DNA from: Candidatus Blautia intestinavium
Lineage (GTDB): Bacteria; Bacillota; Clostridia; Lachnospirales; Lachnospiraceae
Assembly: GCA_019113745.1 (NCBI GenBank)
Contig: DXGV01000026.1
Coordinates: 51,944 to 115,943, forward strand
Direction of reading: 5' to 3'
DNA: 64,000 nt
Shown here: positions 53,446-64,000 of the stretch, piece after piece
Numbering within the stretch: the stretch's first letter is position 1
Layout: the number at the start of each line of letters is the position of its first letter
Notes under the pieces: generated by a model
The model's input: only the letters and a program-made list of their open reading frames with translations
Databases searched by the model: none
What the model was told of the DNA's origin: nothing
Program-made: the position numbers and the translations under genes

Positions 53446-53964
53446 TCATAACTTAAAAACGACTTCCAGAACCAGCCCGACCACTTCCTCAAGTCTGTCC
53501 GGATCCAGATTTTCTATCATATCTGAGCTGTCGTTTACACTTAATCCATTTTCCCAGTCCTGGACTATGGAAACAGCCGGAATGTTCAGCAGGAAAAAGG
53601 GATAATGATCGCTGTTCATCGCCATCGTCAGGCGGAATCTTTCATTTTCCATAAATAAATCAGATATTTCATTTTTATTTTATTCAAATCTTTGATTTTC
53701 GATATCCTGATATCCCAGATCCTCAAAACACTTTACAATATATTCTTTTACGTTCTGGATCTGCTCTGAATTTACCGGGCGGGGCGCGGCCGATATATCC
53801 CGTATGATGTCAAGCATCCTCTCCTTTGATATCTCTGATTTTATATCTGCCCCTGATGAAAAATCCTGACTGTTGTTTCCTTCTGCTATATCAGGTGTAA
53901 AAAGGCATAGCGCTATCATCCCTGTTATTGCGCAGATTCGTCTCCACTTATATTTCATTTTCAT
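53446..53964 (-). pseudogene. Truncated M28-family aminopeptidase
   Basis: Two pieces remain. The N-terminal piece (53680-53964, 94 codons) has a signal peptide and MLDIIRDISAAPRP, as in secreted M28 peptidases, then stops. The C-terminal piece (53446-53652) carries NSDHYPFFLLNIPAVSIVQD, the zinc-ligand His region and end of the fold. The catalytic middle is missing, so an internal deletion and frame loss have destroyed the gene. Confidence 0.75.
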
Positions 53965-53985
53965 CCCTCCTGTTATTGAAAAAAA

Positions 53986-54435
53986 TCACTTTTTTCCAAT
54001 TATTTTCCTGATAAGTAGTAGTAACAAAAAATAAATCACGCATAACGCAATTCCTGCAACACAGCACCACAAAGCCAATATATACCAAAGACTTTTCACT
54101 CTTTCAATTTGATAAACGGCTATCTCTCCCCGTTCAAGAACCATAAGCCCCAATATGGCAATCGGAGCACATGCACCCAAAACAAAGGCTATCACCGCCC
54201 CAAAAGCCGTCAGCATTTTCTGATAAAATTTTACCTTTTTCAAGGGATTACTCTTTAATTCAACATCAGTGCTTTGAACATCTATCTGCATTTTCATTGC
54301 CAGCAACTTTTTTCGGCACTCTTCGCATCCGCTTAAATGTCGGTCAATGTCTTTTTTCGTTTGTTCTGATAATATATCATCCTGATATAACGGTAACAAA
54401 TCAGAAATAACATAGCAAGGAATTTCTTTATTCAT
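53986..54435 (-). CDS. Zinc-finger anti-sigma factor
   Basis: 149 residues. N-terminal zinc anti-sigma domain with HLSGCEECRKKL (about 33-44) and Cys7, then two TM helices (about 75-98 and 113-141). Restrains the ECF sigma factor whose stop overlaps its ATG as ATGA. The signal is unknown. Confidence 0.85.
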   Translation of the reverse strand: MNKEIPCYVISDLLPLYQDDILSEQTKKDIDRHLSGCEECRKKLLAMKMQIDVQSTDVELKSNPLKKVKFYQKMLTAFGAVIAFVLGACAPIAILGLMVLERGEIAVYQIERVKSLWYILALWCCVAGIALCVIYFLLLLLIRKIIGKK

Positions 54436-54911
54436 CTTTTCAAAGTCTCCTTTACAATTTTTTGTTTTCCTCTATAAAAAGTTACTCTTGTCCAATTTTC
54501 GGTTTTGCCGATTATTTCTCCGATTTCAGCAAAAGTTAAGTTGCTGATCAGCCTTAAATACATTACTTCCCGAACCGGCTCATCCATACCATGTATCAAC
54601 TGTAAGATTTCTTTTTGTTCCCATTGAACATCCATGTGTTCTTTATTCGTTATTTCCGGGATATTATCCTCTATAGATACGGTTTTCTGGCGTTTTCTTA
54701 AATCTTTCAGCCAGACGTTTTTGGCGATTCCACATAACCAGGTCAATATGGAACTATTTCCCTTAAACTTATCAATACATTGAACAGCCTGAAAGAAAGT
54801 TTCCTGAGTAAGTTCCTCTGCAATATCCTCATTATTTGTCTTACTTAATAAAAACAAAAAAACTTTTCGCGAATACATCTTATATATTTCTTCAATCACT
54901 TGCTCTGTCAA
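54432..54911 (-). CDS. ECF-family RNA polymerase sigma factor
   Basis: 159 residues with region 2 (NNEDIAEELTQETFFQAVQC, then SSILTWLCGIAKNVWLKDLRKR) and region 4 (REVMYLRLISNLTFAEIGEI). Acts with the anti-sigma next to it. A TGTAAC-N16-GTACTA element upstream suggests autoregulation. AT-rich. Confidence 0.92.
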   Translation of the reverse strand: MTEQVIEEIYKMYSRKVFLFLLSKTNNEDIAEELTQETFFQAVQCIDKFKGNSSILTWLCGIAKNVWLKDLRKRQKTVSIEDNIPEITNKEHMDVQWEQKEILQLIHGMDEPVREVMYLRLISNLTFAEIGEIIGKTENWTRVTFYRGKQKIVKETLKR

Positions 54912-54927
54912 CCTCCTTTCTACTCGT

Positions 54928-54955
54928 TAGTACCAAGTTTTTTAATTTTGTTACA
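54928..54955 (-). promoter_or_regulatory. Candidate ECF auto-promoter
   Basis: Minus-strand TGTAAC (54950-54955), 16 bases, GTACTA (54928-54933); resembles ECF promoters (AAC -35), located just before the sigma gene. Confidence 0.4.
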
Positions 54956-54966
54956 ATCTTTCATAA

Positions 54967-55012
54967 CAAAAAAACCTTGAATATGTTATATAAAATTATA
55001 ACATATTCAAGG
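54967..55012 (-). terminator. Strong terminator of the CooC operon
   Basis: Perfect 16-bp stem CCTTGAATATGTTATA (54975-54990) with its inverse (54997-55012), then TTTTTTT on the minus strand. Confidence 0.92.
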
Positions 55013-55081
55013 CTCGATTTCGTCATACAGTATTTTGATTCTCCTCATTTTTAATAAGAGACAGAATAACATCAGCAAGCT

Positions 55082-55297
55082 CTACTTTGTTCTTCCCGGA
55101 ACGTTGTCTTCCAGAAACAGATCCAGCACTACCCCTTCCGGTATGGTATACCCGCACTTATCGCATACGCTGTCTCCCACAGTCTGGTTTTCTCGCTCAA
55201 ACACCTCTATTCCGTCTCTGGCTCCACATGCCGGACAGTTGATTTCTCTGATCACCGTCATTTTTCTGACGTCCTGACAGTCTGCAAATGCGATCAT
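55082..55297 (-). CDS. Small zinc-ribbon protein linked to CooC
   Basis: 71 residues. Cys pairs CPAC (about 21-24) and CDKC (about 45-48) form a zinc ribbon; the tail is acidic and hydrophobic (GVVLDLFLEDN). ATG 55297 overlaps the CooC stop as ATGA and AAGGCGGAAA precedes it. Translational coupling to a nickel-insertion ATPase suggests an accessory metal role, which is inference. Confidence 0.7.
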   Translation of the reverse strand: MIAFADCQDVRKMTVIREINCPACGARDGIEVFERENQTVGDSVCDKCGYTIPEGVVLDLFLEDNVPGRTK

Positions 55298-56082
55298 TTT
55301 TCCGCCTTCTTTCCAACTATATCTGAATCAAACTTTCTCTTGATCTCCCGGATTTCATCTGTAGCCGCCTTGCTGAATCCGAAGGGAGAAATCCCTTCCC
55401 TGTCCGCCTCTGCCACCTCCGGATTATAATGTACGCATCCCAGAAAGTCCTCCGCCGGAATTCTGGATTTTACAAACTCTTCATCCTTTTCATCCCTGAC
55501 TTTATTTGCAATGACCTTTACCTCTTTCACCCCCAGGCCTTCTGCCAGACGTTTCACATTCCTGTAAGTCTGTACGCTTCTTGCGCCGGGTTCGATCACT
55601 ACGATGAACTGATCCATGCCCTCTGTAGTCCCCCGCCCCAGATGTTCCAGTCCTGCTTCCATATCAAGTATCACAATATCGTTCCTGTGCAGGACCAAGT
55701 TATTGATAATCCGCTTCAGCATCACATTTTCCGGACATACGCACCCTCCACCTGCTGTTTCTACAGTCCCGAGAACCAGCAGCCGGACGCCGTTACATAC
55801 TTTTCCATATTTTTCAGGAATATCATCTACTTTTGGATTCACTTTATAAAAAGTGTTGCTTCTGTCAGCGCCCGTTCTTTCCTCCACCAGTTTCCGCATC
55901 TTGCTGACAGGAGTGATACTTTCCAGTTCTTCCTCTGAAAATCCCAATGCCAATCCCAGATTGGCGTCCGGATCCACGTCTACCGCATACACATTTTTTC
56001 CTTCTTCTGCGTACAGTCTTGCCAGCACGGCTGTAATCGTAGTCTTTCCCACGCCGCCTTTTCCGGTTACCGCTATCTTCAT
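55294..56082 (-). CDS. CooC-family nickel-insertion ATPase
   Basis: 262 residues, MinD/ParA-like. Deviant Walker A GKGGVGKTT (7-15), VDVDPDANLGLAL, and a CxC motif in GGGCVCPENVM, which in CooC proteins binds nickel at a dimer interface. CooC matures the nickel-iron CO dehydrogenase. No CODH gene is within the window. Starts 25 bases after the other CooC. Confidence 0.88.
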   Translation of the reverse strand: MKIAVTGKGGVGKTTITAVLARLYAEEGKNVYAVDVDPDANLGLALGFSEEELESITPVSKMRKLVEERTGADRSNTFYKVNPKVDDIPEKYGKVCNGVRLLVLGTVETAGGGCVCPENVMLKRIINNLVLHRNDIVILDMEAGLEHLGRGTTEGMDQFIVVIEPGARSVQTYRNVKRLAEGLGVKEVKVIANKVRDEKDEEFVKSRIPAEDFLGCVHYNPEVAEADREGISPFGFSKAATDEIREIKRKFDSDIVGKKAEK

Positions 56083-56107
56083 ATGTCTGTTCCTCCGCCC
56101 GTTTATG

Positions 56108-56878
56108 CTATAATCCCAGTTTCTCTATGATTCCTTTCAGTGCGGACCTTACCGGAGAATCCTTGGGAAGCTGTACGGTAGGACGGCCTTCGCAGTCGAA
56201 GCGGTAAACGTCCTCGTCCTGGGGAACCACGCCCAGAAGCTCCAGATTCTGCTTTCTCACTTCCTCCATAGTTCCTTCATCCAGCTTTCCTTCCGGCGCG
56301 CGGTTGACGATCAGCCCTACCTTCTTCGGATGAAAGTCCAGTTCTTTCATCAGCGCCGCGATCCTTCCCGCCGCCTGTACGCCTCTTCTGGAACAGTCGC
56401 TTACCAGAATGGCGATCTCCATATTGGGAAGGATTCCCCTGCTGATATGTTCCATCCCAGCCTCGTTATCCACTACAATATAGGGATAATGGCTCTGCAG
56501 TTTCTGAATCTGAGTCTGCACGATCCCATTTACATAACAGTAACATCCCTGACCCTGGGAACGCCCCATGATCATCAGATCATAGTCGTCTTCTTCTGTC
56601 AGCGCGTCGTCCAGCCTGCATTCCAGCCAGGCGGCCTTTGTCATTCCCGCGGGAATTTTATACCGGGGATCCGTTCCGGCCCGCTCTATCTCTTCCCGTA
56701 GTTCTCCAAGAGTCACTCCTGCTTCCACACCCAATACTTCGTTAAGATTGGAATTGGCGTCCGCGTCCACCGCAAGCACCGGCTTCTTGCCGGACTCACA
56801 GAGATACTGGATCAATAAACCGCAGAGTGTTGTTTTTCCTACTCCGCCTTTTCCTGATACTGCAATAATATGTCCCAT
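56108..56878 (-). CDS. CooC/AcsF-family nickel-insertion ATPase, second copy
   Basis: 256 residues. Walker A GKGGVGKTT (9-17), VDADANSNLNEVLG, and CYC in QGCYCYVNGI. It differs clearly from its neighbour, so these are two paralogues, as in acetogens that mature CODH and acetyl-CoA synthase separately. First gene of the operon; promoter at 56984-57012. Confidence 0.88.
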   Translation of the reverse strand: MGHIIAVSGKGGVGKTTLCGLLIQYLCESGKKPVLAVDADANSNLNEVLGVEAGVTLGELREEIERAGTDPRYKIPAGMTKAAWLECRLDDALTEEDDYDLMIMGRSQGQGCYCYVNGIVQTQIQKLQSHYPYIVVDNEAGMEHISRGILPNMEIAILVSDCSRRGVQAAGRIAALMKELDFHPKKVGLIVNRAPEGKLDEGTMEEVRKQNLELLGVVPQDEDVYRFDCEGRPTVQLPKDSPVRSALKGIIEKLGL

Positions 56879-56957
56879 AATGTCCTCCTGTCGATTCAGA
56901 TCTGCAGCAGTTCATCCCTGAGGCAGAACTGTTATGCACACCCGGTAAATTTATGAA

Positions 56958-56967
56958 CAACATGTTG
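56958..56967. promoter_or_regulatory. Palindromic operator candidate between cooC and tetR
   Basis: Perfect CAACATGTTG in the divergent region, inside a larger TATGAAC...GTTCCATA frame; a plausible site for the adjacent TetR protein. Confidence 0.4.
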
Positions 56968-56983
56968 ATTTTCTATGTTCCAT

Positions 56984-57012
56984 ATATTATGATAAATACA
57001 CCGGAAATTCAA
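56984..57012 (-). promoter_or_regulatory. Promoter of the CooC operon
   Basis: Minus-strand TTGAAT (57007-57012), 17 bases, TAATAT (56984-56989). Confidence 0.6.
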
Positions 57013-57082
57013 TCATCAGATTTACCAGACTGTACGGTTCCTGAACAGATCCGGAAATCTGTCTTGAAAAGGGGGATTTTGA

Positions 57083-57667
57083 TTGAAGAGTAAAGAAAAA
57101 AATCAGGGGACGGACCGCCGCACCCGATATACAAGAAATGTGATCCGGGAATCGCTTCTTTCAATGATGCGACAGAAGCCCTTTTCCAAAATCACAGTCA
57201 CAGAGATCTGCAAGCTGTCAGAAATTAACAGGGGAACTTTCTATCTTCATTATTATGATCTGGATGATGTGCTGGACGATATTATAGACATGCTTGTGCA
57301 GGATACCACGAAGGTCTACGACCATGTGATGTGTCCGGAAAAGACAAGATGCACCTATCCTTTCTGTCAGAAGGTACAGGAAAATCCGGAATACCGTATT
57401 CTTTTCTTTGATGAGATCGCCTCCGCCCGCTTCCTGGACAGACTCTGCGAGCTGTCCAAGGAAGATTTCGTTACCCGGCTCATGCAGAACAGCCTCCTCT
57501 CCTATGAGCAGGCGGAAGCTGTCCTGTATTTCCAGATGAACGGATGTCTGGCGATCAATAAACGTATGCTGAAAAACAACTGTCAGGACTGGACCCGGAT
57601 CCAGCAGGCCATCGATCAGTTCATACGGGCAGGGCTGGAGAGTTACCTTATCCATGACGGAAGGTAA
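57083..57667 (+). CDS. TetR/AcrR-family regulator
   Basis: 194 residues. N-terminal HTH with RESLLSMMRQKPFSKITV, TEICKLSEINRGTFYLHYYD. TTG start with GGGGGA upstream. Divergent from the two cooC genes, so it probably regulates them or itself. Cys-rich stretch VMCPEKTRCTYPFC (about 82-95) is unusual and could bind a metal; inference. Confidence 0.88.
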   Translation: MKSKEKNQGTDRRTRYTRNVIRESLLSMMRQKPFSKITVTEICKLSEINRGTFYLHYYDLDDVLDDIIDMLVQDTTKVYDHVMCPEKTRCTYPFCQKVQENPEYRILFFDEIASARFLDRLCELSKEDFVTRLMQNSLLSYEQAEAVLYFQMNGCLAINKRMLKNNCQDWTRIQQAIDQFIRAGLESYLIHDGR

Positions 57668-57676
57668 GCCTTGTTA

Positions 57677-58486
57677 TCAGTGATTTCCCGCGCAGCCCTG
57701 CTTATCTTCGCCACAGTGATGACCGTCGCCATGGCCGCCGCAGTTGTGGCCTTCTCCATGATGTCCGTTTCCGTGATGGCTGCACTGGATATCCGGATTA
57801 AAGGCAAGATTTCCGGCCAGGAGCGCTTTTACCGCTTCATCCGCGTTTCCGGTCACGCCGCCGTAAAGCTCGATGCCGGCGTCCGCAAGGGCATTCTTGG
57901 CTCCCATTCCGATACCGCCGCAGATCAGCGTGTTCACGCCCATCTCTTTCAGGAAGCCTGCCAGAGCGCCGTGTCCGCTGCCATTGGTATCCGCAACCTG
58001 CTCTTTTACAATACCGCCGTTCTCCACATCATAGAGCTTAAACTGTTCTGTGTGTCCAAAGTGCTGAAATACATTCCCTTTTTCAAATGTTACTGCAATT
58101 CTCATCTCATGATCTCCTTTCAACCTGACTGAGGCAGCTATCCGGGGAATACCGGACACCCTGCCGCATCTTTTCCGGCAGAAATGAACCGCTGAGCCGT
58201 CGCAGAGGCGGTAATCGCCGCCTTCTATGATCAGCCGCTTCCCATTCACAATGCTGTCTGCGATCTTCTCACGGGCGCTTTCATAAATCTCTGTCACCGT
58301 GGTCCTGGAAATATCCATCCGCTTCGCGCACTGCTCATGAGTCAGCTTCTCCAGATCGATCAGCCGGATCACCTCGTATTCGTCTACTGCGAGGGTCACG
58401 GTTTCACTGCAGGGAATCCCGTCCGGCATAAAACTGCTGTAATCCGGTTCCGAACAGACTCTTCTGCATCTTCTTGGTCTTGCCAT
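57677..58486 (-). CDS. DUF134 - NifX/NafY-like fusion with His-rich tail
   Basis: 269 residues. DUF134 (about 1-100) holds an HTH-like segment LTHEQCAKRMDISRTTVTEI and Cys residues CDGSAVHFCRKRC (95-107). The second part (about 128-232) is a dinitrogenase iron-molybdenum cofactor-type domain (MRIAVTFEKGNVFQHFGHTE). The end (236-269) is His-, Gly- and Cys-rich and likely metal-binding. An internal AAAGGAGAT stands 7 bases before the codon for Met128, so a separate NifX-like product may also be made. Confidence 0.85.
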   Translation of the reverse strand: MARPRRCRRVCSEPDYSSFMPDGIPCSETVTLAVDEYEVIRLIDLEKLTHEQCAKRMDISRTTVTEIYESAREKIADSIVNGKRLIIEGGDYRLCDGSAVHFCRKRCGRVSGIPRIAASVRLKGDHEMRIAVTFEKGNVFQHFGHTEQFKLYDVENGGIVKEQVADTNGSGHGALAGFLKEMGVNTLICGGIGMGAKNALADAGIELYGGVTGNADEAVKALLAGNLAFNPDIQCSHHGNGHHGEGHNCGGHGDGHHCGEDKQGCAGNH

Positions 58487-58525
58487 AGTGACACCTCCGT
58501 TTCATTTCCGTCATATGTCGAAAAT

Positions 58526-58554
58526 AATATAACACACTTTTCCGAAAAATGCAA
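58526..58554 (-). promoter_or_regulatory. Promoter of the DUF134-NifX gene
   Basis: Minus-strand TTGCAT (58549-58554), 17 bases, TATATT (58526-58531). Confidence 0.7.
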
Positions 58555-58587
58555 CTCAAAACATTTGATTACTCAAAACATTTGATT
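58554..58587. repeat. Two tandem 17-bp repeats at the sirtuin 3' end
   Basis: ACTCAAAACATTTGATT (58554-58570) is repeated exactly at 58571-58587, reaching into the sirtuin stop codon. Confidence 0.85.
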
Positions 58588-59422
58588 AATTGCCACAGTC
58601 TGTAGCAACCCTGTGAAGGATCTCCCCCAGATCGCCGTCCAGTCCACAGGACTTCCCGCTGATCTCCTGGGGGATAAATATTTCGCCCAGATTGACCGTC
58701 ACATAAAAAGCCTGGGGCTCTCGCTCTGCCAGACGCATGAGCGGCGCCTTGATCAGCTGATTTCTCCAGCCGATCCCCAGTTCCAGGATCAGCAGTTTCT
58801 TTTCATGATACTGTTCCAGAAAACTGTCCAGCCGTTTCTTGCTCTCTGTATCAGGAATAAAATTCCCGTCCATCGCCATATGAACCTGCACCGGCCCGCC
58901 GCAGACAGGGCAGCGGGGAACAAGATCCGCCGGGATTTTTCCTCCCCGCTCCATCTCAGCCATTTTCTCCGCGAGATCTCCCCACGGATAAACGCTGTCA
59001 TGACACCGGGAGGCGCACTGCATGGTCAGCCAGTTACCCTCTATCTCGTAAATCTTCTCCGGCGAAAAACCGCACATCTCAAAATGGCATTCCCCATTGG
59101 AAGTGACCACAAAACAGTCTTTTCCACCTATGACTGTTTTCAGGTCGGCCATCACCTGGGTTTCCCGGTATTCTTTACAGTAATGACGGACAAGGCGGCT
59201 CCAGAACCCCCATTTTTCTTCTTCGGAAGGCCATTTCGCGCCCATGCCATGAAGAATACATGTAAGACCATACTTTCTTTTCAAATCTCCGAACAGATCC
59301 TCAAAGGCCTGGTTACAGGCAAAAAGATGCAGTCCTTCCGTAATGGACAGTCCGTTGCTGGCTCCGATCAGCAGGGCGTCTGCTTCTCTTATTTTTTCTG
59401 CTGTTTCTTTTATGATATCCAA
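58586..59422 (-). CDS. Divergent Sir2-like protein
   Basis: 278 residues. NAD-binding LIGASNGLSITEG near 18-30 (GAxxS type), VVTSNGECHFE for the TQNID box, and a zinc ribbon with CASRC and CPVCGG. The catalytic His of classical sirtuins is Glu in YEIEGNW. TTG start with AAGGAGGGGA. Follows the SirTM-like gene by 31 bases. Deacylase, ADP-ribosyl transferase and inactive NAD-binder are all possible. Confidence 0.85.
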   Translation of the reverse strand: MDIIKETAEKIREADALLIGASNGLSITEGLHLFACNQAFEDLFGDLKRKYGLTCILHGMGAKWPSEEEKWGFWSRLVRHYCKEYRETQVMADLKTVIGGKDCFVVTSNGECHFEMCGFSPEKIYEIEGNWLTMQCASRCHDSVYPWGDLAEKMAEMERGGKIPADLVPRCPVCGGPVQVHMAMDGNFIPDTESKKRLDSFLEQYHEKKLLILELGIGWRNQLIKAPLMRLAEREPQAFYVTVNLGEIFIPQEISGKSCGLDGDLGEILHRVATDCGN

Positions 59423-59453
59423 AAAATCCCCTCCTTCCGGCGCTTTGGCTTAC

Positions 59454-60446
59454 TTATTCCGTCTGGACTCTATCGGTATTTTCCGCTTTGGCCGCTTTCA
59501 CCGCATCCCTCAGCACGTTCCCGATATCTCCCACGATCACCATACCCTTATCCTCGATCTCTTTCGGCAAAAAATCATATCTGTCATTTACCGCGATATA
59601 CCTTGCCTCCGGAAAACTCAAAGTCAGGTTCCAGAACGGCTCCTGAATAAACATAGGCGTCAGTCTTCCCACGCCGAGTTCCAGGAAAAGAATTTTTTTA
59701 TCTTTGTGCTCCAGCACATAGCGGGATATCTTCTCATACTGTTCTTCATATTTTTTCCCCTGAAGGAAATTCCCGTAACCCCGCACCCAGGGAAAAGCTT
59801 CCTCACCGCAATGGGGACAGCGGGGTATCAGTTCTTCTGGAACAGCCGTGCCGTCTCCCATGGCTTCTATCATTTGCTCCACCGGCTTCACCGCATCCCA
59901 GGTATCATCTGTACAGCACTTCGCGCACTGAAAAAAGCGGTGGTCTCCCTGGATCTCCGCCACTTTATCTTCCGGATAGAGCTTTACAAACTGGGTGTCC
60001 TGGTTGGTGGTAAGAATAAAGAAATCTTTTCCCTGCAGAAGATAATCCAGATTCCGGTAAGGCTCCCGAATTCCAGACGTCTGGGTAGTGTGCAAAAAAG
60101 TTGCCAGATAACCCCAGAATTCCTGACGGTCATCCCAGGGACGCATCATCCCGTCAAAAGCGCCTTTAAAATGATATTTCTCTGCATATCTGCCGAAATA
60201 TTTTCTATAGGAAGCATTGTCCTCATAATAAAAATCTCCCCCGCCTGCGGCCGACAGACCGGAGGCCCCGCCCACGATCACACAGTCCGCTTCCTTTATC
60301 TCCCAGAGCAGGGTCGCGATCTGTTCCGTATAGGAAACCGGTTTTCGCTCCGCCAGCTGATAGGGTGTTTTTCCCGCCGCATACAGACTGTAATAACGGG
60401 AATAATTCATCTGTGTCTGCATTACAAGATCTTCATAGAAACTCAT
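59454..60446 (-). CDS. Class M (SirTM-like) sirtuin
   Basis: 330 residues. VGGASGLSAAGGGDFYY near 57-73, LTTNQDTQF near 151-159 and AEIQGDH where classical sirtuins have His: Gln here, as reported for macrodomain-linked SirTM ADP-ribosyltransferases. Zinc ligands CAKC and CPHC. Known SirTMs sit beside macrodomain and lipoate-pathway genes; none is next to it here. Ribosome site CTGGAGGATG. Confidence 0.88.
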   Translation of the reverse strand: MSFYEDLVMQTQMNYSRYYSLYAAGKTPYQLAERKPVSYTEQIATLLWEIKEADCVIVGGASGLSAAGGGDFYYEDNASYRKYFGRYAEKYHFKGAFDGMMRPWDDRQEFWGYLATFLHTTQTSGIREPYRNLDYLLQGKDFFILTTNQDTQFVKLYPEDKVAEIQGDHRFFQCAKCCTDDTWDAVKPVEQMIEAMGDGTAVPEELIPRCPHCGEEAFPWVRGYGNFLQGKKYEEQYEKISRYVLEHKDKKILFLELGVGRLTPMFIQEPFWNLTLSFPEARYIAVNDRYDFLPKEIEDKGMVIVGDIGNVLRDAVKAAKAENTDRVQTE

Positions 60447-60476
60447 GTTTTTTCATCCTCCAGTATACAGGAAAAA

Positions 60477-61094
60477 TCAACTCTGTCTTTCCTGCAGTTT
60501 TTTCTGTATTTCTTCCAGAAGAAGCGTTCCCACTGTCACCGCGTCCTCCACAGAAAGGAAATGTTCTGCGCTGCGATCCAGGAACATTCTTCCGGTTCCG
60601 GCGATTTCTTCGTCCGAAAACCAGATTTTCAGCGTCACCGGATAATACGGGAGAAAAGGAAATACGATTCCCAGATCAGCATTGCAGGATATGATTTTGC
60701 CGCCCAGTGCCAGACATGCTTCTTTCACCGCTTCTTCCGGACAGTTTCCCATGCTGCGGCTGACAGTCTGCTCACAAAGTCTGTCAAATCCGCCTCCCCG
60801 TACCATTCCGCCCGGCTGTTCTCCGAAACTCATCAGCTCGCCGGTCAGACTGCTGCCGTCCGCCGTGTCCATATAATGAAGGATTGCCAGATGGTGCCAC
60901 TGGTTCAGTTCCGGCTCTATTTTGCATTCCGGCCAGGAAACCACGATGTCCTGTCCCATGGAGGTCAGACGGAATTGCGAGGTCTCCGGCACAAAGACAA
61001 TCCCGGTATTTTTTTGTATTTCTTCAGGATCTCTTCCCGCCAATCGTTCAAGGGCCGTCATCCTCATGTTCTCAAAAGCTCTGTTTTCCTTCAT
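60477..61094 (-). CDS. DUF3786 protein
   Basis: 205 residues. Contains QDIVVSWPEC near 48-57, ILHYMDTADG, and a C-terminal FLSVEDAVTVGTLLLEEI. DUF3786 proteins occur in anaerobes, often beside corrinoid or metalloprotein genes; function is not settled. First gene of a DUF3786-SirTM-Sir operon from the promoter at 61141-61169. Confidence 0.75.
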   Translation of the reverse strand: MKENRAFENMRMTALERLAGRDPEEIQKNTGIVFVPETSQFRLTSMGQDIVVSWPECKIEPELNQWHHLAILHYMDTADGSSLTGELMSFGEQPGGMVRGGGFDRLCEQTVSRSMGNCPEEAVKEACLALGGKIISCNADLGIVFPFLPYYPVTLKIWFSDEEIAGTGRMFLDRSAEHFLSVEDAVTVGTLLLEEIQKKLQERQS

Positions 61095-61140
61095 AACATT
61101 CTCCCGTATTTATTGTAATTTTATATTTAACATCAATTCC

Positions 61141-61169
61141 AGTGTAACATTCCCTTGCAGACATGTCAA
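61141..61169 (-). promoter_or_regulatory. Promoter of DUF3786-SirTM-Sir operon
   Basis: Minus-strand TTGACA (61164-61169), 17 bases, TACACT (61141-61146). Overlaps the oppositely directed Rrf2 promoter. Confidence 0.8.
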
Positions 61170-61183
61170 TATGCTGTTATAAT
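61155..61183 (+). promoter_or_regulatory. Promoter of the Rrf2 gene
   Basis: TTGCAG (61155-61160), 17 bases, TATAAT (61178-61183). Shares DNA with the divergent DUF3786 promoter. Confidence 0.8.
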
Positions 61184-61211
61184 TAAATTAACATTTGAGG
61201 AGGAACGACTT

Positions 61212-61658
61212 ATGAAATATTCCACAAGAGTCAGCGACGCAGTCCATATTATGGCCTTTATTGTTCTGAATCCCAAGGGTTCCCTGTCCAGCAACAGCAT
61301 CGCGGAAAGCCTACACACGAATCCCGGGTGCGTGCGGCAGCTTATGTCCGCCCTTCGCCGGGCGGGACTGCTCTCAAGCGTACAGGGACACCCCACACCG
61401 TCTCTGACGGCCGCCCCGTCTGCCATCACTCTGCTGGATATCTATAAAGCTGTGGAAGGAGACAAGCCCCTGCTCCATCTGGATACCCATACCAATCCGG
61501 AATGCGGCGTGGGAATCTATATCCAGCTTTCTCTTCAGGATTACTTTGTCAGAATACAGGAGACTGCGGAAAAAGAAATGAAAAAGATCACACTGCAGGA
61601 TATCCTTGACCGCTATCAGGATAAAATTTCTCTTTCAGTCTGTCCAAACCCAGATTAG
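61212..61658 (+). CDS. Rrf2-family regulator
   Basis: 148 residues. Winged helix with KYSTRVSDAVHIMAFIV, SSNSIAESLHTNPGCVRQLM and LRRAGLLSSVQG. Only a few Cys (NPGC, NPEC), short of the usual three for an iron-sulfur cluster, so a redox sensor is uncertain. ATG 61212 follows GAGGAGGAACGA. Divergent from the sirtuin operon and likely its controller through the overlapping promoters. Confidence 0.88.
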   Translation: MKYSTRVSDAVHIMAFIVLNPKGSLSSNSIAESLHTNPGCVRQLMSALRRAGLLSSVQGHPTPSLTAAPSAITLLDIYKAVEGDKPLLHLDTHTNPECGVGIYIQLSLQDYFVRIQETAEKEMKKITLQDILDRYQDKISLSVCPNPD

Positions 61659-62293: not shown

Positions 62294-64000
62294 TTAAAGA
62301 CTGTTTTCTACTGCGCCCGGAAGCAGGTTGTAAATCGACCCCTTCATTTTCTCCTCAAAATCTGCTTTGATCTCCAGCACTTTCTTCCATCTGTCGACTG
62401 TGTGGGGATGGACGCCATAGCGGATCTTCACGTCCACAAAACGCTTTTCCAGGATGCAGAAACCGGTAGGCAGCGCCAGTGCGTCGCACAACTGCACAAG
62501 GCGGTCATAATCATCATAGGCAGCAGTTTTAATGAACTTTTCCATAAAACAAAAATCTTCTTCCGTGACATCAAAGGTTCCGATAGACGTGTGGATGTCC
62601 TGGATCATGAAAGCGTGAGAAATGCAGATTTGCGCTGCTTTTTCCCATCCCTTTTCCATACAGAAACGATAGCCGTCTATCAGATGGCGTTCGGAACTCA
62701 CCCCGGCATATCTTCCTATATCATGCAGGAGTCCGAAACAGTATGCCTGATCAGCGTCCATAGCAATCTCTTTGATGCTCTCCCACAGGTCGATCCAGAA
62801 CTGCCGGAACTCTTCACAGTTATTCCAGAGATAAATAAACGCCGCCACCAGAGCAACGATCGCCGCTATAATCAGCACATACGGATTCGCCGCACATACC
62901 GCATTGAAAGCTGCAAATACACCCTTCGCTGCATTGATCACGCCTGCCAGCTTCGGCACCAGAGTCATAATAGTACCGACCGCAGAGATGACTTTACCGA
63001 CTATGATCAATACCGGACCGATCGCAGCCGCCACCAGGGCAATCGTCACGATCACCTTCCTGGTACCCTCATCCATCGAATTGAGCCAGTCCACAAACTT
63101 CTGGATCCAACCCACAATGGTTCGGATCGCGGGCATCAACAGTTCACCAAAAGAAATCGCCAGCTCTTCCAGTTGGGACTTCAGGATCTGCAGCTGACTG
63201 GCAAGGTTATCATTCATGGTCTCAGCCATACTTGCCGCAGAACCATCGCAGTTATCAATCGCACTGGAAAGCTTGTTGATATCCGCTTCTCCGGCGTTCA
63301 TCAGAGCCAGAAATCCGGACATCGCATTTTTGCCAACCAACGATTCAGCCGCTGCCGCCTTCTCTGATTCAGATAGACCTGAAAATGCCGTTCGGCAGTC
63401 AGCCAGAATGTCCGACAGATCCCTCATGGAGCCATCTGCATTGGTCGTTGCAATCGTTACCTCTCCGATTGCGGATCCGCAGATCGTCACATCCCCGGAC
63501 AGATTATTCATGATCGTTCTGAGAGAAGTACCTGCCTGGGATCCCTTGATACCGGCATTGGCCATCAAACCGATCGCTTCCGCTGTATCCTCCGCAGAGA
63601 ATCCCAGAGCACCTGCAATCGGAGCGCAATACTTAAAGGTCTCACCCATCATGGAGACATTCGTATTCGCGTTACTGGAAGCAGCCGCCAGGATATCCGC
63701 AAAATGCCCGGAATCCTTTGCCGTAAGTCCGAACGCTGTCAGAGCATCTGTCACGATATCAGAAGTGGTAGCCAGATCCTCACCGGAAGCTGCAGCCAGG
63801 TTCATGACACCTTCGATACCGGAAAGCATATCCTCTGTCTTCCAGCCGGCCATCGCCATATAGTTCATGGCTTCCGCAGCCTCGGATGCAGAGAACTTTG
63901 TCTTCTCACCCATCTCACGGGCTTTATCCCTTAAGGCTTCAAGATCAGAGCCAGTCGCACCGGATACCGCCGCCACCTTGCTCATGGCGGAATCAAAATC
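62294..64000 (-). CDS. Phage tail tape-measure protein joined in frame to the end of an HD hydrolase (partial)
   Basis: The frame is open to the window end. Most of it is TP901-type tape measure: NYMAMAGWKTEDML, MGETFKYCAPIAGALGF and TSLRTIMNNLSG, then hydrophobic helices. After EFRQFWIDLWESIKEI (about 62765) the sequence becomes the C-terminal part of an HD-domain hydrolase: DADQAYCFGLLHDIGR, ERHLIDGYRF, ending GAVENSL. The N-terminal half of the HD protein is missing. Gene fusion by deletion of a prophage, or a chimeric assembly, would both explain it. Confidence 0.8.
   Translation of the reverse strand, partial: DFDSAMSKVAAVSGATGSDLEALRDKAREMGEKTKFSASEAAEAMNYMAMAGWKTEDMLSGIEGVMNLAAASGEDLATTSDIVTDALTAFGLTAKDSGHFADILAAASSNANTNVSMMGETFKYCAPIAGALGFSAEDTAEAIGLMANAGIKGSQAGTSLRTIMNNLSGDVTICGSAIGEVTIATTNADGSMRDLSDILADCRTAFSGLSESEKAAAAESLVGKNAMSGFLALMNAGEADINKLSSAIDNCDGSAASMAETMNDNLASQLQILKSQLEELAISFGELLMPAIRTIVGWIQKFVDWLNSMDEGTRKVIVTIALVAAAIGPVLIIVGKVISAVGTIMTLVPKLAGVINAAKGVFAAFNAVCAANPYVLIIAAIVALVAAFIYLWNNCEEFRQFWIDLWESIKEIAMDADQAYCFGLLHDIGRYAGVSSERHLIDGYRFCMEKGWEKAAQICISHAFMIQDIHTSIGTFDVTEEDFCFMEKFIKTAAYDDYDRLVQLCDALALPTGFCILEKRFVDVKIRYGVHPHTVDRWKKVLEIKADFEEKMKGSIYNLLPGAVENSL

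Follow-up and report, generated by a model that had tools for sequence, protein, structure and literature searches.

A gene island of Candidatus Blautia intestinavium (Lachnospiraceae) may be read as two separately controlled operons, one with a second copy of the nickel-maturation CooC pair of this organism's own acs cluster and the other a mobile two-sirtuin stress module, which would place a nicotinamide adenine dinucleotide (NAD)-dependent, redox- or metal-triggered mark on a nickel enzyme or its maturation. We hold this reading as a whole tentatively, at somewhat short of an even chance. Three of its parts are firm observations, namely the copy of the acs CooC pair, the tracking of acetogenesis genes by the DUF3786 family, and a conserved two-sirtuin cassette devoid of the known partners of class M sirtuins (SirTM); beyond these, we infer a function shared by the two operons. 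The island occupies positions 55082..61658 of the window, the whole stretch of 64,000 nucleotides that was analyzed (51944-115943 of contig DXGV01000026.1, here C2), whose right end is also the end of the contig, in a draft genome of 2.73 Mb in 60 contigs that is 82.7% complete. An initial annotation of the window had described nine genes within 6.6 kb and suggested that they constitute a single module for maturing or protecting a metalloenzyme. All nine are present where it placed them, with their families checked by hidden Markov models, and Pfam cut-offs are passed by the DUF134-Nitro_FeMo-Co (NifX) fusion with its His-rich tail, by DUF3786 and by Rrf2; the observation itself is confirmed and its interpretation partly supported.

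The genome holds a complete acs cluster on contig C60, in the order formate-tetrahydrofolate ligase (partial, at the contig end), DUF3786, AcsV, AcsE, AcsC, AcsD, AcsB, CooC, the catalytic subunit of carbon monoxide dehydrogenase (CODH) and another CooC, with a second CODH gene on C17. Within the island, CooC2 (56108..56878), CooC1 (55294..56082) and the small zinc-ribbon protein ZnR (55082..55297) form a minus-strand group, with a gap of 25 bases followed by an overlap of 4 bases. The assignment of the first two as CooC-type nickel ATPases is upheld by their matches to the solved CooC 3kje (1.3e-53 for CooC1 and 1.3e-13 for CooC2). An excerpt of PMC6006190 gives a deviant Walker A motif and two Cys in a CXC motif as the marks of CooC; both island proteins possess them (GKGGVGKTT in each, with CVC in CooC1 and CYC in CooC2), and the genome encodes nickel CODH. 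The CooC encoded between AcsB and CODH shares 78% identity with CooC1, and the one beyond CODH shares 68% with CooC2; hence, the island carries a second copy of this pair. These features and this closeness to the acs-cluster pair liken them to the CooC/AcsF nickel-insertion ATPases, from which the island pair differs in its location outside the acs cluster and in its company of a zinc ribbon and a Cys-rich TetR. It is predicted from sequence to load nickel into CODH/acetyl-CoA synthase. The zinc-ribbon protein, the last gene of the operon, is indeed coupled to CooC1, accompanies CooC in relatives and retains five Cys in 8/8 aligned rows.

The DUF3786 family firmly tracks the genes of acetogenesis, i.e., those of CODH/acetyl-CoA synthase. 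The island member (60477..61094, minus strand), which is the first gene of the Rrf2-linked operon, matches PF12654 with 129.2 bits against a cut-off of 27 bits (1.6e-37). In a sample of 250 genomes of the family, our own included, DUF3786 is found in 33 and a CooC of at least 57% identity likewise in 33, the two sets being identical; acs-type CODH hits, in the band of 581-660 bits, occur in 32 of these 33 genomes and in 0 others, while CODH of any kind is wider (53 genomes). In a phylum-level sample of 368 genomes, 98 have DUF3786, 103 have AcsB (CdhC) and 86 have both, an odds ratio of 107 that is uncorrected for kinship. The copy number per genome ranges from one to six. The island protein was modeled with a mean predicted local distance difference test score of 95.4, and it has no clear relative of known structure. 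Thus, the metalloenzyme link of the initial annotation holds for CooC and DUF3786, with CODH/acetyl-CoA synthase as the enzyme. As a separate observation, two Lachnoclostridium loci (L162 and L164, isolates An138 and An131) have genes for fumarate-reductase-like FAD and Fe-S subunits between SirB and a DUF3786 gene.

Island-type CooC2 proteins (at least 77% identity) are present in 13 of the 250 family genomes. Four of these (G090, G102, G118 and G223) have a single CODH hit each, and the acs CODH is therefore the sole CODH candidate there. In some relatives, a CobS-like AAA_5 protein and a CobT-like VWA protein are encoded between or beside the two CooC genes (L041, L044 and L045, where they lie between them, and L087), their AAA_5 and CobT_C domains being alike to those of the CobS/CobT AAA-VWA chelatases or the MoxR-VWA pairs. 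Of the family genomes, 28 have strong VWA relatives, all of these genomes being inside the 33 with DUF3786 and CooC, and eleven additional ones have weaker matches. This likeness belongs to the relatives and has no counterpart in the island: no AAA or VWA gene lies between the window's CooC2 and CooC1, as a CobST-like chelatase would have it, and the nearest VWA homolog of this genome, 46% identical, is on another contig.

Some further genes were noted around the CooC loci. Beside an acs CooC gene of the same genome (L081:13849-14178) is one for a 109-aa His-rich protein that by eye resembles the nickel-binding CooJ type. Just beyond the CooC operon of the window, on the minus strand, are what look by eye like an extracytoplasmic function sigma factor with an anti-sigma-like partner (53986-54911) and a truncated peptidase frame (53680-53964); the sigma factor gene adjoins CooC in L121 too.

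The second operon runs on the minus strand from DUF3786 through SirA (59454..60446) to SirB (58586..59422, with the start codon TTG), the genes being separated by 30 and 31 bases. Neither sirtuin matches any Pfam model. The best solved relative of both is the Streptococcus pyogenes SirTM 5a3a (1.3e-38 for SirA and 7.9e-37 for SirB), upon which the model of SirB superimposes with a template modeling score of 0.86, and by sequence and fold both are class M sirtuins. In the partial text of Rack et al., 2015 (PMC4518038), SirTM activity is stated to require Asn118, Arg192 and, at the position where other sirtuins have His, Gln137. The absence of the classical catalytic His from both proteins, as initially annotated, is accordingly borne out as a trait shared with 5a3a, where Gln stands in its place. 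SirA shares the equivalents of all three residues, in 95/95 rows. SirB retains the Asn in 70/70 rows, has Glu in place of Gln in 70/70 and has lost the Arg in all (0/70). The two groups of rows were assigned by phmmer score and were not deduplicated; 28 more rows fall in neither, and at the Gln137 position six of these have Glu and one is unreadable. The class motif GVGx[NT]TP is found in neither protein, SirA having mostly GVGRLTP or GVGRMTP and SirB mostly GIG.RNQ. A tree built from 103 sampled rows has several long branches; in it, SirA constitutes one side of a branch with a support of 99, and SirB is one group except for two rows that the score rule left unassigned. Faecalibacterium, Gemmiger and others have a third paralog, with intact residues, encoded between the two. 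The island departs from SirTM in having two paralogs side by side, one of them with a replaced active site. SirA is likely an ADP-ribosyltransferase, and SirB, with its altered active site, is likely its partner.

SirA-SirB is a cassette in its own right, and a widespread one. A SirTM relative of some kind is present in 130 of the 250 family genomes and a SirA ortholog in 17. SirB adjoins SirA in 14 of the 16 ortholog loci fetched from the family, the window excluded; of the two others, one is at a contig end and one is a fragment. The named loci, the best 80 of 233 SirA relatives in GTDB genomes, include SirB in 67, Rrf2 in 58 and TetR in 36. Hosts of the pair range over Blautia, Faecalibacterium, Gemmiger, Desulfovibrio (isolate An276), Collinsella, Paenibacillus, Mesobacillus and Lactiplantibacillus. 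On plasmids of Paenibacillus sp. 37 and Mesobacillus foraminis, SirA-SirB is followed by an HD protein and then by a nicotinate phosphoribosyltransferase and an isochorismatase-family hydrolase (which in M. foraminis are separated by one small gene), and such a dedicated NAD-salvage pair is to be expected if SirA-SirB consumes NAD. Both of these sirtuin pairs show the same Gln/Glu split, and in Lactiplantibacillus plantarum SirB, again with Glu, is fused to a cupin. An HD gene directly follows SirB in 8/97 loci. In another set of SirA/SirB loci (L132, L137, L144, L146, L192, L194, L198, L199 and others), the genes stand with those of a radical S-adenosylmethionine (SAM) protein and a DUF5131 protein, often together with flavin-reductase-like, HxlR or MarR proteins.

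Each operon faces a regulator gene on the plus strand, TetR (57083..57667) divergent from CooC2 and Rrf2 (61212..61658) divergent from DUF3786. The start of Rrf2 is probably the ATG at 61212, preceded by GAGGAGG, in place of the TTG at 61155. The regulator belongs to PF02082 (4.1e-28), in common with IscR, CymR and HypR, and its best NCBIfam resemblance is to HypR and CymR, below their cut-offs. Fe-S regulators of the IscR type carry three cluster Cys; these are not found in the island Rrf2, which differs from the family in having one invariant Cys (46/46 rows; other Cys in at most 22) and a palindrome of its own, TGTWA-N9-TWACA. Upstream of Rrf2, a promoter core is common to 45 non-redundant regions, 44 of which contain this palindrome, where shuffling predicts 0.08 and other spacings give 1 or 0. 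It is placed on the side of the divergent gene in 33 regions, over the Rrf2 -10 box in 40, and at both sites in 29; the window has both, as putative operators O1 (61114..61132, on the DUF3786 side) and O2 (61175..61193, overlapping the -10 box). The paired sites are kept whether DUF3786 (the window, L121 and L130) or SirA is the facing gene, an argument for control of both by Rrf2. Of the Cys-rich TetR proposed in the initial annotation, the Cys part stands best, with Cys43 conserved in 33/34, Cys95 in 34/34, and Cys84 and Cys90 in 17/34 rows each; the family name rests on a weak TetR/DhaS-like match that fails to reach the Pfam cut-off (16.9 vs 24 bits). Between TetR and CooC2 lies another putative operator (TCAACA-N3-TGTTCA, 56954..56968, minus strand), the only exact match in the genome to the pattern TCAACA-N3-TGTTSA that is seen in 8/8 such divergent regions. 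DUF3786-SirA-SirB would thus be under Rrf2 and CooC2-CooC1-ZnR under TetR.

The two operons also recur together. Among the family genomes, 8 contain both SirA and an island-type CooC2; in 6 of them the distance between these two genes is 2.6-5.6 kb, and in another, G204, both are situated near contig ends. In 16/80 named loci, DUF3786 is at most 250 bases from a sirtuin gene on the same strand, its place being ahead of the pair, inside it or behind it, and relatives have the same genes as neighbors in changed order. CooC, ZnR, DUF3786 and the DUF134-NifX fusion are found in 0/24 of the other SirTM loci of the family (L049-L072, within the fetched stretch). This recurrence, together with the absence from other SirTM loci, makes the grouping more than chance. 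Among the 80 named loci, acetogen-type genes (CooC, DUF3786, AAA, VWA or ZnR) are present in 29, P1B-type ATPase or HMA genes in 20, both in 5 and neither in 36.

The DUF134-NifX gene (57677..58486, minus strand, 99 bases beyond SirB) is a variable part of the island. The best named match of SirA is in Candidatus Blautia intestinipullorum (L121), to which the window is 95.4% identical in DNA over 53678-57664; the identity drops to 85.1% on the sirtuin side exactly at the DUF134-NifX gene, which is missing there. It occurs near SirA in 7/80 named loci.

Several observations weigh against a common role of the two operons or narrow the reading of their parts. DUF3786 occurs without AcsB in 12/98 and AcsB without DUF3786 in 17/103 genomes of the phylum sample; several DUF3786 copies adjoin neither an acs nor an island gene, many of them without a common neighbor; the Fisher p values ignore kinship, and the score bands were set after the lists were seen. 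Likewise, a SirA ortholog is lacking from 22 of the 33 genomes with DUF3786, 6 of the 17 SirA genomes have neither DUF3786 nor a close CooC, CooC2 is near SirA in only 22/80 named loci, and G118 carries them on separate contigs. The heavy-metal ATPase or HMA genes near SirA/SirB in 20/80 loci do not point to CODH. The Rrf2 pattern was discovered and counted in the same regions, chosen by a core that overlaps O2, and O1 is therefore the independent evidence; genome-wide, the pattern has 6 places against 12 for a reversed control, which is not above background, so that only the pairing is notable. Moreover, the operons have no operator in common, since the window's Rrf2 sites are confined to 61114 and 61175 and its TetR site to 56954, and each would hence have its own switch. 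The single module of the initial annotation is therefore not supported in that form, the sirtuin pair being a cassette of its own, the putative operators differing and the DUF134-NifX gene missing from the matching locus of the nearest relative. The comparison of gene neighborhoods that it called for gives a mixed answer: the closeness of CooC2 to SirA and of DUF3786 to the sirtuins speaks for a link, and each also occurs alone.

Two alternatives deserve mention. The operons might be independent accessories in a plastic region, the CooC pair serving CODH/acetyl-CoA synthase and the sirtuin cassette being unrelated to it. The mosaic relation to L121, with the CooC side far closer than the sirtuin side and the NifX gene between them missing, the spread of SirA across phyla, its occurrence without CooC2 in 58/80 loci, and the different putative operators agree with such independence; however, it leaves unexplained why the genes stay within 6 kb in 6/8 genomes despite changes of order, why DUF3786, limited in the family sample to acetogen-type genomes, is directly beside sirtuin genes in 16/80 loci, and why no such neighbors are seen at the 24 other SirTM loci. 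We regard it as unlikely, albeit a serious contender. Alternatively, SirA-SirB might be a general switch for heavy-metal or thiol stress, with the link to acetogenesis as one of several uses by its hosts. This finds favor in the P1B-type ATPase or HMA (20/80), ArsR (14/80) and radical SAM pair (17/80) genes of the named loci, in the single-Cys Rrf2, and in the zinc, cupin and HD partners of other hosts; yet the figures for metal genes are raw counts, and 36/80 loci, many of them on short contigs, have neither acetogen-type nor P1B/HMA genes, and we consider it a still less probable account.

Known systems with such sirtuins offer two more explanations. The one known target of SirTM is the lipoylated GcvH-L, from which a macrodomain removes the mark (in the partial texts of PMC4518038 and PMC11490716), and the fold and the active site of SirA would suit an ordinary system of this kind modifying lipoylated GcvH or GcvH-L. 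Yet a search for GcvH (GCV_H) that covered 11 of the 17 SirA genomes was positive in 0 of these 11 and in 10 of 14 named controls, none of the controls being known to bear GcvH-L, so that a very divergent GcvH-L could escape it. By tblastn with one query protein, the window has no linked macrodomain, and only 2/97 loci have one at a distance of up to 3 kb from a sirtuin gene, both beside a separate SirTM. SirA-SirB also differs from SirTM in having a divergent Rrf2 or TetR regulator. An ordinary SirTM system is disfavored and has hardly any probability left to it. An anti-phage NADase system of the SIR2 type might be envisaged, as NAD-consuming sirtuin folds are frequent in phage defense and the pair is spread across phyla and plasmids. 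PADLOC models match 0/5 of the proteins searched (SirA, SirB, DUF3786 and the AAA and VWA proteins of relatives), and dedicated control by Rrf2 and partners in NAD salvage speak against defense, rendering this very improbable too. Elsewhere in the genome, a macrodomain-like gene stands beside a short SirTM fragment (C24:2230-3337, L049), with one in-frame TGA and an open frame of 131 aa; this usual SirTM-macrodomain locus looks broken, whereas the SirA-SirB genes of the same genome are intact.

Under the reading of two separately controlled operons with a shared function, Rrf2, with its one invariant Cys, would sense the redox or metal state and let go of its two operators, whereupon SirA would spend NAD to mark some protein other than GcvH. 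SirB might bind NAD or SirA without SirTM transfer and thereby tune or target SirA; DUF3786, as an acetogenesis factor, would bring the sirtuin switch to bear on the nickel enzyme or on its maturation, and TetR would separately tune the supply of CooC. A bolder version, which we find quite doubtful, envisages a two-component sirtuin system in which SirA writes ADP-ribose, SirB with its invariant Glu acts as an eraser or gatekeeper that replaces the macrodomain, and the target in acetogens is the maturation of CODH/acetyl-CoA synthase, reached via DUF3786.

At the contig end, a minus-strand frame (62294-63985) combines a phage tail tape-measure part (TP901 type, 2e-73), which matches phage records, with a weak HD-domain piece that is unrelated to the HD protein following SirB elsewhere; this frame is either a genuine fusion or the product of a chimeric contig end.

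More generally, a widespread pair without macrodomain or GcvH implies that ADP-ribosylation by sirtuins has other targets and probably other control, and the same active-site replacement recurs in one partner from Lachnospiraceae to Bacillales and Lactobacillales. DUF3786, mentioned by a single paper in the full-text literature searched, becomes a candidate factor of the Wood-Ljungdahl pathway. If the two-component sirtuin system were true, it would constitute an NAD-dependent switch on carbon fixation.

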